Shown one piece after another: positions 55,946 to 58,516 of a DNA stretch of 64,000 nucleotides. Location of the stretch: NCBI RefSeq assembly GCF_040219335.1, contig NZ_JAVJSQ010000003.1, forward strand, positions 96,530-160,529, read 5' to 3'. The DNA comes from Gimesia sp. (lineage in GTDB: Bacteria > Planctomycetota > Planctomycetia > Planctomycetales > Planctomycetaceae). Positions within the stretch are counted from its first letter, which is position 1; each line of letters opens with the position of its first letter. The notes beneath the pieces were generated by a model. The model ran no database searches, was not told the DNA's origin, and worked only from the letters and a program-made list of their open reading frames with translations. The position numbers and the translations under genes were made by a program.

Positions 55946-56608
55946 TCAGCATTCAGTATTCAGTTCCATGGCAAGCAGGTTCAGCATCATGTCCCGGCTA
56001 CACGCCAGACCACGCAGCCAACGTCCAAAGCTGTGCACCATCAATCCTGCCGCCATGTTGGCTGTGTAGATGGTGCCCTGGGCAGTGCAGCTGCCCTGAT
56101 GAGCTTCCTGTTGGGGAAACAGTGTCTCTGCATACTGCTTAGCGCTCAGCGGATCTGAAACCGTGAGCACACGCATGACTTCCCCCTGCATCCGTCCATC
56201 ACACCAGAAATCACAGTGCGTACTTGCAGATCGCCAGATTGCCGCACGGGCAGATATGGAATCCACACAGCAGAAGATAGCCTCTCCGATATTCACAGAC
56301 GGACGAAACCGATCTGGAATCGTCTCCACGTGAATCGAATCATCAAGTTCCCGGATCGACTGCGCTGTTGCTTCAACTTTTGCCAGCCCCATCTCCTGTG
56401 TCCGATATCCTTGAGTCGTGATATTGGTTAATTCGACTTTATCGAAATCCACAAGTTGAATACGCGGTGTTCCGATCGCCGCCAGTTGTAGTGCCACCTG
56501 ACGGCCAATGGCTCCCACACCAATCACGGTCGCCGAAACCTGAGAAAGCTTCTCAGAGGGGACCAGACTACTCTGTCTCTGAAAACGGTCTACTGTTGTC
56601 TTTGTCAC
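55946..56608 (-). CDS. E1-like ThiF/MoeB-family adenylyltransferase
   Basis: 220 residues, a minimal adenylation domain. The nucleotide loop is GVGAIG (30-35); LVDFDKVELTNI has the acidic pair D54/D56, and CCVDSISARAA the D116/R121 ATP-site pattern. Candidate cysteines for thioester formation include C174 (QGSCTAQG) and the nearby C132/C136. Members adenylate the C-terminus of a ubiquitin-like protein. Here it is the last gene of Ubl, E2/RING, JAMM, E1. It overlaps the JAMM gene by 4 bases (ATGA), so they are translationally coupled. No thiamine or molybdopterin genes are near. Confidence 0.9.
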   Translation of the reverse strand: MTKTTVDRFQRQSSLVPSEKLSQVSATVIGVGAIGRQVALQLAAIGTPRIQLVDFDKVELTNITTQGYRTQEMGLAKVEATAQSIRELDDSIHVETIPDRFRPSVNIGEAIFCCVDSISARAAIWRSASTHCDFWCDGRMQGEVMRVLTVSDPLSAKQYAETLFPQQEAHQGSCTAQGTIYTANMAAGLMVHSFGRWLRGLACSRDMMLNLLAMELNTEC

Positions 56609-57336
56609 AGCAAGTCTCCTTCCAAATCAAGATCATCGAAATAAAAATCGGCATCCCAGTCAAAACCGCCCAATGCCAATAACGGCCTGCCGGGTTTGTG
56701 TTGTTCGGGATGCACGTTCGTTAAATATTCCTCTTCCCAGCATTCGGGATCACAGCCCGGAAAGAGCTCTGAGTAATCCCGCCTGACCGGAATCTCACAT
56801 TCAAACGCGGGGCCGACATTCATCCGCAGACGGGCGTAAGACTGTCCCTGCCGGGCCAGGATGAACATCACGGCCCAGTCGGATCGACCAAAGACGCGTT
56901 CAAACGTCTCTTCATCGGTCGGACTGGGCTCTGGACAGTGTCCTGGGTGGGTGTGGATCCAGATCCGGCCAAACTGCTCAGGGCGTAGGCCAGTATCGAC
57001 CTGATCGTCAAAGAAATTCGCTACCGCCTCGTCGTCGAAGGCCACATGGACCAGCGAGCAGGTCTGTTTCACCAGTTGCAGGTCCTGGACCAGTAGCAAA
57101 TCCCTCGGGGCCGTGATTCCAAAGCCGCCAACCTCCGTATCACCATAATCACGCAAAAACAGCAGTTTGGCCCAGGCGGTCGGACTAAAGCGGAGTGACG
57201 GCAGGAGAGACCGTCTCCGGCGACGTGGTTTCCTGGTCCGGTTCGTACGTTTCTTCATCTTCCTGTGTTTCACAGATCGGGCACCTTTCTTCATGATCGA
57301 GGCAATTTGAACAACAGCTGGAACGACAGAGTCCAC
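56605..57336 (-). CDS. JAMM/MPN (JAB) metallopeptidase, deubiquitinase-like
   Basis: Up to 243 residues; the start is uncertain (GTG 57336, or ATGs at 57294 and 57258), because the frame overlaps the upstream gene by up to 152 bases. The N-terminus is basic (RKPRRRRR). The JAMM motif is complete: E68 (DTEVGGFG), H128-x-H130 and, after seven residues, S138-x-x-D141 (HTHPGHCPEPSPTDEETF). Such zinc peptidases process or remove ubiquitin-like proteins at their C-terminal glycine. Here it sits between the E2/RING gene and the E1 gene. The C-terminal 90 residues beyond the motif are Asp/Glu-rich. Confidence 0.93.
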   Translation of the reverse strand: MDSVVPAVVQIASIMKKGARSVKHRKMKKRTNRTRKPRRRRRSLLPSLRFSPTAWAKLLFLRDYGDTEVGGFGITAPRDLLLVQDLQLVKQTCSLVHVAFDDEAVANFFDDQVDTGLRPEQFGRIWIHTHPGHCPEPSPTDEETFERVFGRSDWAVMFILARQGQSYARLRMNVGPAFECEIPVRRDYSELFPGCDPECWEEEYLTNVHPEQHKPGRPLLALGGFDWDADFYFDDLDLEGDLL

Positions 57337-58201
57337 ACTCTTTCAGGCAGGATTCACAGCAGTTATCGCGACAGACTTCACAGCGGGTCACGCAATCGTG
57401 GCAAAATGAGGAGTTACAGTCGGCACAGCTATTGGTACATTGCAGGCACAACCGGTTCTCGCAATTTGTGCAATGGGTCTGTTCATCTGTGGTCACGACA
57501 TCCGCACATTCACTGCATTCCGCACTATGCCAGTCGCTGAGAGCGACATAGGGACTTTCCGGGTTGTAAGTGAGTAACAGGCGATTCACCAGCACGAAAA
57601 AATCCAGCAGTCGTCCCTGTTTCAGGGAGCGTCTGATGGGCACGCGGGCGTCTCCTTCACAGACATTGTCATACTGCACATGAGGATGCGTGACCGCATC
57701 ATTGGTTATCGGTGGCTGCGGGTCTTGGGCAATCACTGTGTAGTGAAAGGGCGAGTCTGAATTCAATGCTGCCAGTTCCAGCCGAATCTCAAACGCTCCC
57801 AGATAGACGCCCTCCAGCATGACTGACTCTGTGACGACTGAAATCGTCTTATTCTTGAGATCGATGATGTAATCACCAAATTCCTCTTCCAGGGCCAGCA
57901 GGTCTTCATAGACGATACGTATTGCAGGAACAGGCTTTTCAGCAGTGGCAGACTCCAGTTCCTGCTGCAACGTCACAAGTTGCCGTGTTAGCTGAAGTAC
58001 TTCTGTGATCAGTTCCCGTTCCACTTTGGCGGCCGCACGAAACCAGCCGCGCTCCTGGGCCTGCTGTCGCATGCGGATCAACCGCAGACAGCTTAACCAG
58101 GCCGCTTCCGGCAGCCCGGTATTCGTCTCACTTGTATGTGTGCTGAGTTGTTTCTCTACCAGACTGGCCATCCGCCAGACCGTTTTCGAACTCTGTTTCA
58201 T
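57185..58201 (-). CDS. E2 (UBC-like) domain fused to a 22-cysteine RING/treble-clef-like tail
   Basis: 338 residues from ATG 58201 (GGGAG upstream; the frame opens at 58270). Residues 1-90 are helical. Residues 100-225 show the E2 order: a strand EFGDYIIDLKNKTISVV, GVYLGAFEIRLEL, FHYTVIAQD-PQPP, then HPHVQYDNVCEGD, which resembles the E2 HPN...C signature with H172, H174 and a candidate catalytic C181, and a helix RLLDFFVLVNRLLLTYNPESPY, as after the E2 cysteine. Residues 229-310 contain 22 cysteines in repeated C-x2-C pairs plus single Cys, a poly-treble-clef/RING-like zinc module. The assignment is my reading of the pattern; the E2 fold is inference, the Cys cluster is certain. Confidence 0.75.
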   Translation of the reverse strand: MKQSSKTVWRMASLVEKQLSTHTSETNTGLPEAAWLSCLRLIRMRQQAQERGWFRAAAKVERELITEVLQLTRQLVTLQQELESATAEKPVPAIRIVYEDLLALEEEFGDYIIDLKNKTISVVTESVMLEGVYLGAFEIRLELAALNSDSPFHYTVIAQDPQPPITNDAVTHPHVQYDNVCEGDARVPIRRSLKQGRLLDFFVLVNRLLLTYNPESPYVALSDWHSAECSECADVVTTDEQTHCTNCENRLCLQCTNSCADCNSSFCHDCVTRCEVCRDNCCESCLKECGLCRSSCCSNCLDHEERCPICETQEDEETYEPDQETTSPETVSPAVTPL

Positions 58202-58226
58202 AGTTCGTTTACTCCCATTAATTGAA

Positions 58227-58260
58227 AACAGGCTGCCGGGAAAGTGGTCCCGACAGCCTG
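58227..58260 (-). terminator. Terminator-like hairpin between Ubl and E2/RING genes
   Basis: Stem 58229-58241 / 58248-58260 (12 pairs, one C/A mismatch, 6-nt loop), then TTTT on the minus strand. It lies in the 90-base gap after the Ubl stop and before the E2/RING start. A partial terminator here would give more Ubl than enzyme. Confidence 0.65.
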
Positions 58261-58291
58261 TCAGAGACAAAATAATTCACTTCAACAACGG

Positions 58292-58516
58292 CTAGTTTTT
58301 CGCACCTTCGATTTTCGTTGGAGTTATAGATATCCGGTCCCCGTCCTCTAACGTCTGATCGGGAGGGCATGGTTGACGATTGACCCGGATCAGGTATTCC
58401 GACGCGTTCGCATCTCGCATGCGTTGTTCGAACAGTTGAGAGACCGTGGTTCCTGTGGCGACTTCGATGTAGTCCGCGAATCCGCCGCCGTCGTTATTAA
58501 TCAGCAAAACTTTCAT
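58292..58516 (-). CDS. Ubiquitin-like beta-grasp protein (ThiS/MoaD-like)
   Basis: 74 residues with AAAGGA 7 bases before the ATG. The profile is a beta-grasp: first strand MKVLLINNDG, second strand YIEVATGTTV, helix VSQLFEQRMRDA, strand EYLIRVNRQPC, then LEDGDRISITPTK. The tail ends IEGAKN, so there is no terminal Gly-Gly; a single Gly (G71) is followed by Ala-Lys-Asn. JAMM trimming after G71 would expose a C-terminal Gly for E1. It lies directly upstream of the E2/RING, JAMM and E1 genes. Confidence 0.82.
   Translation of the reverse strand: MKVLLINNDGGGFADYIEVATGTTVSQLFEQRMRDANASEYLIRVNRQPCPPDQTLEDGDRISITPTKIEGAKN

Follow-up and report, generated by a model that had tools for sequence, protein, structure and literature searches.

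Whether a bacterium can join a ubiquitin-conjugating enzyme (E2) and a ligase-like (E3) element in one protein chain, and what such a chain would serve, is the question raised by a locus in a planctomycete that, among named organisms, is closest to Gimesia. The locus lies in a stretch of 64,000 nucleotides (Gimesia sp., RefSeq assembly GCF_040219335.1, contig NZ_JAVJSQ010000003.1, positions 96,530 to 160,529 of the forward strand), called the window here, which forms the end of its contig. On the minus strand, positions 55946-58516 hold four open reading frames (ORFs) encoding, in order, a ubiquitin-like protein (Ubl), an E2 with a cysteine-array tail, a JAMM peptidase and an activating enzyme (E1). 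The reading favoured, with moderate confidence, is that they form a mobile planctomycete Ubl-conjugation system in which an E2 and a predicted zinc array share one chain and which likely serves anti-phage immunity. The genes and their parts are as follows.

58292..58516, minus strand: Ubl, 74 residues, ThiS-type, beta-grasp by family (Pfam ThiS, conservation)
57185..58201, minus strand: E2 and Cys-array protein, 338 residues, with a helical N-terminal region (about 1-90), a UBC domain (about 92-226) and a Cys array (229-310) (homologue alignment, predicted structure)
57524..57928, minus strand: UBC (E2) domain, residues 92-226 (Foldseek and profile comparison)
57659..57661, minus strand: codon of Cys181, the predicted catalytic cysteine (conservation and profile comparison)
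57272..57517, minus strand: ten C-x2-C pairs, residues 229-310, predicted treble-clef-like zinc array (conservation and predicted fold)
56605..57336, minus strand: JAMM/JAB peptidase, true start probably internal to the ORF (Prok-JAB, PADLOC JAB, motif conservation)
55946..56608, minus strand: minimal E1, 220 residues, single ThiF-type adenylation domain, invariant Cys174 (Pfam ThiF, conservation)

Related loci number 78, some of them perhaps from the same species, and all 62 that hold the four genes keep the same order and strand. Since the 338-residue protein has 643 relatives in a protein search and the gene order is conserved 62 times out of 62, the conservation of the cassette exceeds chance. 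The remaining 16 loci are without the full four-gene set, 12 of them losing genes towards a nearby contig end; in one locus (L054), the roughly 0.9 kb preceding the E2 gene contains no Ubl match. The first-pass annotation of the window had proposed a complete Ubl/E2/JAMM/E1 cassette at these positions, and this stands, as does its start for the E2 gene, which is supported by a GGAG upstream of the ATG at 58201.

The beta-grasp assignment first made for the Ubl agrees with its family, Pfam ThiS, which it matches with 25 bits (cut-off 22.5); no solved relative was found by sequence up to E 1. Among ORFs similar to the window proteins (coverage of at least 75%, the sets used for the Ubl, JAMM and E1 counts), Gly71 is present in 75 of 75 Ubl relatives and Ala72 in 74 of 75, with a variable short tail after them; Gly71/Ala72 and this tail are the predicted JAMM cut site. 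The E1 scores 89.6 bits against Pfam ThiF, above the cut-off, and retains the GVGAIG loop and acidic ATP-site residues ascribed to it from the outset: the loop glycines G30, G32 and G35 and residues D54, D56, N62, K77, D116 and C174 each occur in all 71 relatives. The JAMM protein falls below the Pfam cut-off for Prok-JAB (19.3 bits against 25) and matches the PADLOC JAB model with E 4e-6; its motif, rightly described at first as complete, comprises E68, H128-x-H130, S138 and D141, each kept in 58 of 58 distinct relatives. As annotated from a GTG at 57336, the JAMM ORF shares 152 bases with the E2 gene, and because of this overlap and of conservation that starts only near residue 48, its true start is probably internal.

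A ThiS-like Ubl and a ThiF-like E1 could also belong to a sulfur-carrier or small-molecule pathway, in which the pair would form a thiocarboxylate and Cys181 would act as a persulfide or acyl relay. The family scores of both proteins fit such a pathway, and ThiS-JAB-E1 sulfur operons are described in an excerpt of PMC1779556. It is nevertheless improbable, given a UBC-type domain with an HPx...C motif and given that no rhodanese, sulfurtransferase or biosynthesis family was matched in nine neighbour-cluster examples scanned, five of which gave no Pfam match at all.

The case for that UBC-type domain begins with the alignment of the window protein and the 120 listed of its 643 relatives: H172, P173, H174 and C181 are present in every one of the 121 rows. 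In a Foldseek search with the predicted model, E2s make up 48 of 50 rows among the matches listed, with probabilities up to 0.99. In a profile comparison with E2s that Pfam recognises, C181 falls on their catalytic cysteine (86%, against 6% for the best among 50 shuffled controls), and the spacing from HPH to the cysteine matches that of planctomycete UQ_con E2s in the same kind of alignment. The 338-residue protein thus likely contains a UBC-type E2 domain, with C181 as its predicted catalytic cysteine. An E2-like block with a conserved C181 had been claimed at first, and both points on which it could have fallen, the predicted fold and the conservation of the cysteine, were examined and neither told against it.

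The tail fused to this domain carries 22 cysteines between residues 229 and 310. All had been assigned to C-x2-C pairs; the count holds, the pairing only for 20 of them, in ten pairs. Each paired cysteine is lost in at most three of 117 to 120 covering rows (the lowest is C289, at 116 of 119), and no tandem DNA repeat lies behind the array at the threshold of the tool used. Comparison of the predicted tail fold returned three FYVE rows with probability 0.98-0.99 and 2.1-2.9 Å over about 50 columns; tandem PHD rows came first by E-value, yet at about 10 Å, and RING, HOIL-1 and HOIP rows were present at lower probability. The ligands form an all-cysteine array with x4/x3 spacing, without a His-containing RING signature (C3HC4, C3H2C3 or the like). 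Of the initial description of a RING/treble-clef-like tail fused to the E2, the fused tail stands, treble-clef-like by its predicted fold, whereas a RING identity finds no support over FYVE or PHD in the predicted-fold matches and the all-cysteine array. Because the predicted fold appears nearer to FYVE/PHD than to RING, an E3 role of the tail can be put forward only by inference. Other large planctomycete proteins of several hundred residues (L083, L086, L088) have similar C-x2-C or C/H arrays, with no HPN/HPH-type E2 motif in the printed frames.

These fold matches and ligands also admit an array that is not an E3 element, but a FYVE/PHD-like targeting or scaffolding module, binding membrane, nucleic acid or protein, on an E2 that works independently of an E3. 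FYVE and tandem PHD are the top matches and the ligand pattern is not that of a RING, which makes this possible, though still on the unlikely side: HOIL-1, HOIP and RING rows do occur, if at lower probability, and the fusion recurs in a second, Pfam-recognised E2 family, that of a second planctomycete Ubl system (L116, L118, L120, L122; L125, L127, L128) in which some UQ_con E2s also end in a C-x2-C array.

The gene order of the window recalls the Bil systems, for which we take the order to be Ubl-E2-JAMM-E1, and the likeness extends to the four genes in one operon and to predicted Ubl processing, activation, conjugation and removal. According to an excerpt of PMC11354881, BilA has two consecutive Ubl domains, BilB a C-E-H-H motif, and BilD an inactive and an active adenylation domain together with a Cys domain. 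In contrast, the window Ubl is a single 74-residue domain, the E2 has invariant H172 and H174 before C181 with no histidine after it among the invariant or nearly invariant columns, the 220-residue E1 consists of one ThiF domain, and a Cys array is fused to the E2. Hence, of the Bil-type match proposed in the first-pass annotation, the Ubl-E2-JAB-E1 order is found, and the two-domain Ubl, the C-E-H-H motif and the two-domain E1 with its Cys domain are not. Membership in the Bil family is ruled out by the single Ubl, the missing C-E-H-H motif and the one-domain E1; a Bil member that merely gained a tail would share the order, but is very improbable for the same reasons and because the histidines precede the cysteine.

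Closer in some respects are operons of planctomycetes and archaea with a UQ_con E2 and a separate Prok-RING, reportedly described by Burroughs, Iyer and Aravind in 2011. Such operons also appear in excerpts of PMC4197634 and PMC7159879, and share with the window an E1, an E2 with HP[NH]...C, a JAB, a Ubl and a zinc-binding treble-clef component, which in the window is predicted. Operons of this type occur at three loci (L125, L127, L128) of the second planctomycete system, which has a YukD-like Ubl (L125), ThiF E1s of 390 and 402 residues (the two scanned), a JAB and a UQ_con E2, with Prok-RING_1 on separate proteins, two of three of which also have trypsin domains. The YukD-like Ubl, the longer E1s, the separate Prok-RING_1 and the Pfam UQ_con domain set these operons apart from the window proteins scanned, sixteen of which (ten and six) gave no match to Prok-RING_1 or UQ_con.

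Bub operons are likewise bacterial Ubl operons, and the window E1 weakly matches a chain named Citrobacter BubCD (E 7e-5). That chain has 458 residues and is presumably a fusion, in contrast to the separate E1 and JAB of the window, and the E2 chemistry of Bub differs from that of the window E2 with its invariant cysteine. Ubl conjugation with JAB, E1, E2 and a RING-type E3, alongside AAA ATPases and with planctomycetes among the hosts, is also a feature of the FtsH ternary conflict systems (eLife 2020, PMC7159879); in those systems Ubl and E2 form one fused chain, a gene of its own encodes the RING, and the effectors are MoxR-vWA and caspase-like. The CBASS Cap2/Cap3 and 6A-MBL systems are alike in their E1/E2/JAB chemistry, and rows 6a and 6b of this type in an excerpt of PMC1779556 have E1 and E2 fused in one chain; no nucleotide cyclase or metallo-beta-lactamase was found among the window proteins scanned. 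The same excerpt (Iyer 2006, PMC1779556) lists E2/E1/JAB/Ubl operons, including a type 6d whose E2 is without the classical histidine, unlike the window E2 with its HPH. In the titles and abstract starts of the open-licence papers that the literature searches listed, neither this cassette nor a fusion of an E2 to a C-x2-C array is described. To our knowledge, bench-studied bacterial Ubl systems have no dedicated E3 part, and those predicted to bear an E3 have it as a separate RING protein.

An anti-phage function is likely, and what supports it is solely genomic context. Several copies of the cassette stand beside known defence genes, among them genes of DISARM, Gabija, prokaryotic Argonaute (pAgo) and restriction systems: a cytosine methylase (type II or DrmMII, with equal scores) and DrmD at L096, and DrmD and AriAB at L098. 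L102 has Gabija GajA and GajB, L099 a type I methyltransferase, L097 a PDC-S25 candidate, and L053, in Neorhodopirellula, a class II pAgo together with its nuclease. The neighbour proteins of these PADLOC scans were chosen by eye, and 7 of 20 gave no match. A fuller scan at E 1e-50 covered all 34 flanking ORFs of at least 300 residues at ten loci and gave 41 families, 25 of them among the matches listed, on at least nine proteins; 82 control ORFs in the same scan gave 19 families of just four kinds (helicase, RtcR regulator, SEFIR and kinase). Because a single genome supplies six of the ten loci, and the control stretches were hand-picked at round positions, this context counts as support, not proof.

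Signs of mobility are present at the cassette itself. The following features flank it, from a tRNA gene inwards.

52482..52569, plus strand: tRNA-Ser(GGA), predicted attachment site, where homology to the copy in genome G166 begins
52859..53962, minus strand: tyrosine integrase
53968..54219, minus strand: HTH_17 protein, presumably excisionase-like
54406..55722, plus strand: 438-residue ORF separating the integrase gene from the E1 gene, present at L099 too

The block 52480-62277 is 91.5% identical to the G166 copy, whose tRNA is Ser(CGA) and which continues beyond the shared block with other genes. The integrase adjoins the tRNA and the homology starts at it, as in an integrative element. The 438-residue ORF has no Pfam, PADLOC or PHROGs match; it is also present in the G166 copy. 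For a second attachment site in G166, no match to the tRNA end of at least 13 bases was found in the next 40 kb, and one of 12 bases was. On another contig of the window's own genome (L139, C44), positions 3143-3162 repeat 20 bases of the tRNA-Ser end exactly, with genes for BREX-type PglW and PglX next to them, and this is possibly the far end of an element. That genome holds three copies of the cassette, and one of these, at L005, likewise has an integrase and a tRNA-Ser close by. The cassette is patchy and multi-copy: across 294 Planctomycetota genomes, full-length matches occur in 9 and any match in 16, with full-length matches in three of the seven same-genus genomes listed, and a single genome has six. 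Of the 78 loci, 30 hold a recombinase or integrase of the clustered types; among the loci of 20 kb these are 6 of 10, against 0 of 10 control stretches, a comparison that favours the cassette loci in that the queries were taken from them. In one scan of viral contigs for phage-borne copies, six stretches matched patterns from the 338-residue window protein alone, which reach close relatives only, and none of the six was a relative.

Upstream of the Ubl, some loci share a further run of genes, all on the minus strand and listed here with their frequency.

58722..58937, minus strand: 71-residue protein upstream of the Ubl, 39 of 78 loci
59033..59278, minus strand: 81-residue protein, 29 of 78 loci
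59288..60418, minus strand: DUF3150-type protein (two listed relatives so named; core of about 313 residues), 29 of 78 loci
60255..61751, minus strand: AAA ATPase, nearest to Cdc48/VCP-like proteins among solved structures, 27 of 78 loci
61797..62402, minus strand: 201-residue OLD-like protein, TOPRIM-type by motif, 18 of 78 loci
62462..62656, minus strand: DUF2997 protein (63.6 bits), 23 of 78 loci
62643..63020, minus strand: DUF1257-like protein (17.2 bits, below the cut-off of 22.2), 23 of 78 loci
63022..63594, minus strand: 190-residue protein heading the conserved run, with an apparently lipoprotein-like N-terminus, 23 of 78 loci

In the window these are read as 190-residue protein, DUF1257-like, DUF2997, 201-residue protein, AAA, DUF3150-type, 81-residue protein, 71-residue protein and Ubl. 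The AAA protein matches its Cdc48/VCP-like relatives with E down to 6e-37 and PADLOC IetA models with E down to 3.7e-13, reaches 43.8 bits with the NCBIfam antiphage IteA model, far below the cut-off of 510 bits, and matches the phage family phrog_8638 with 281 bits. Since this last match covers nearly its whole length, phages carry relatives of the ATPase. In the 201-residue protein, several relatives of which are named ATP-dependent endonuclease or OLD family, the residues E8, D12, D70 and E72, each conserved in 115 to 121 of 121 sequences, belong to motifs (VEG..D and DxE) that we take to be TOPRIM. The Cdc48-like and OLD-like proteins may thus accompany the cassette. For the DUF3150-type family, queried with its 332-residue part, homologues number at least 5711, compared with 643 for the E2 protein, so the DUF3150/AAA module is not bound to the cassette; other loci have an alternative neighbour set with a GHKL-type ATPase, DUF2958 and others. 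In one copy (L095, 5925-8036), what looks by sequence like a 703-residue recombinase gene interrupts the DUF1257 region.

Several of these results weigh against an immune E2-array system. The best Foldseek match has only E 0.016, none lies below 0.001, and the TM score on the target is about 0.5. In the VIA comparison, no E2 reaches a Z of 8 and rows of helical hairpins come out ahead of the E2s, in lists where the absence of a family does not exclude it. The E2 profile match spans only 46 columns, and at the thresholds used the 338-residue protein matched no family of Pfam (up to E 1), NCBIfam, PADLOC or PHROGs; UQ_con and Prok-E2 are not among the 14 Pfam families matched by any of 85 family members. 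Three loci (L013, L020, L030) are without JAB and/or E1 despite a contig that continues, and the AAA module occurs at 27 of 78 loci only, with a DUF3150-type protein much commoner than the cassette. The tail's nearness to FYVE/PHD, the neighbours picked by eye, the controls and the recombinase queries described above belong here as well.

The mobility and neighbour data also bear on whether a working Ubl cascade need be immune at all. It could serve the mobile element in excision, transfer or maintenance, or the host in stress response or quality control, on islands that merely accept cargo. The recombinases at 30 loci and the breadth of the DUF3150-type family are in keeping with this, and Bub operons, which are of similar kind, are by the account of PMC13373217 not known to give protection against phage. 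We nevertheless regard it as unlikely: the same four-gene core travels with two quite different neighbour modules and different recombinase types, and known defence systems lie beside several copies, where the 82 control proteins yielded so few kinds of match.

In the anti-phage system favoured here, the JAMM peptidase would trim the Ubl after Gly71, the one-domain E1 would adenylate that glycine and, perhaps via Cys174, hand the Ubl on to the UBC domain, at Cys181. The array of predicted treble clefs would dock the target or orient the charged E2, and the Ubl would be joined to the target, from which the JAMM peptidase could remove it again. At some loci, the Cdc48-like AAA and OLD-like proteins may act on tagged targets or as an effector, and the outcome of tagging would hamper the phage. 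The observations behind this scheme are the gene content and order, the conserved catalytic residues, the E2 homology, the position next to an integrase and a tRNA, and the defence genes near relatives. A bolder extension is doubtful: a self-contained mobile ubiquitin system made up of a one-chain E2/E3, a Ubl, a JAMM deconjugase and a minimal E1, which at some loci would be linked with an unfoldase of Cdc48 type and a nuclease of OLD type, in which infection would trigger the tagging, unfolding and cutting of phage components, and which would amount to a ubiquitin-Cdc48 immune pathway built independently in bacteria.

The cassette is a further likely immune system, and one that goes unrecognised by the PADLOC models used here; that one genome carries six of its copies hints at repeated gain or selection. 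A conserved family joining an E2 to a multi-zinc treble-clef-like array would test the minimum needed for targeted conjugation, and the fusion would illustrate one way in which the functions of E2 and E3 merged. Where the cassette is paired with a Cdc48-like ATPase, as at some loci, it parallels the eukaryotic ubiquitin-p97 axis.

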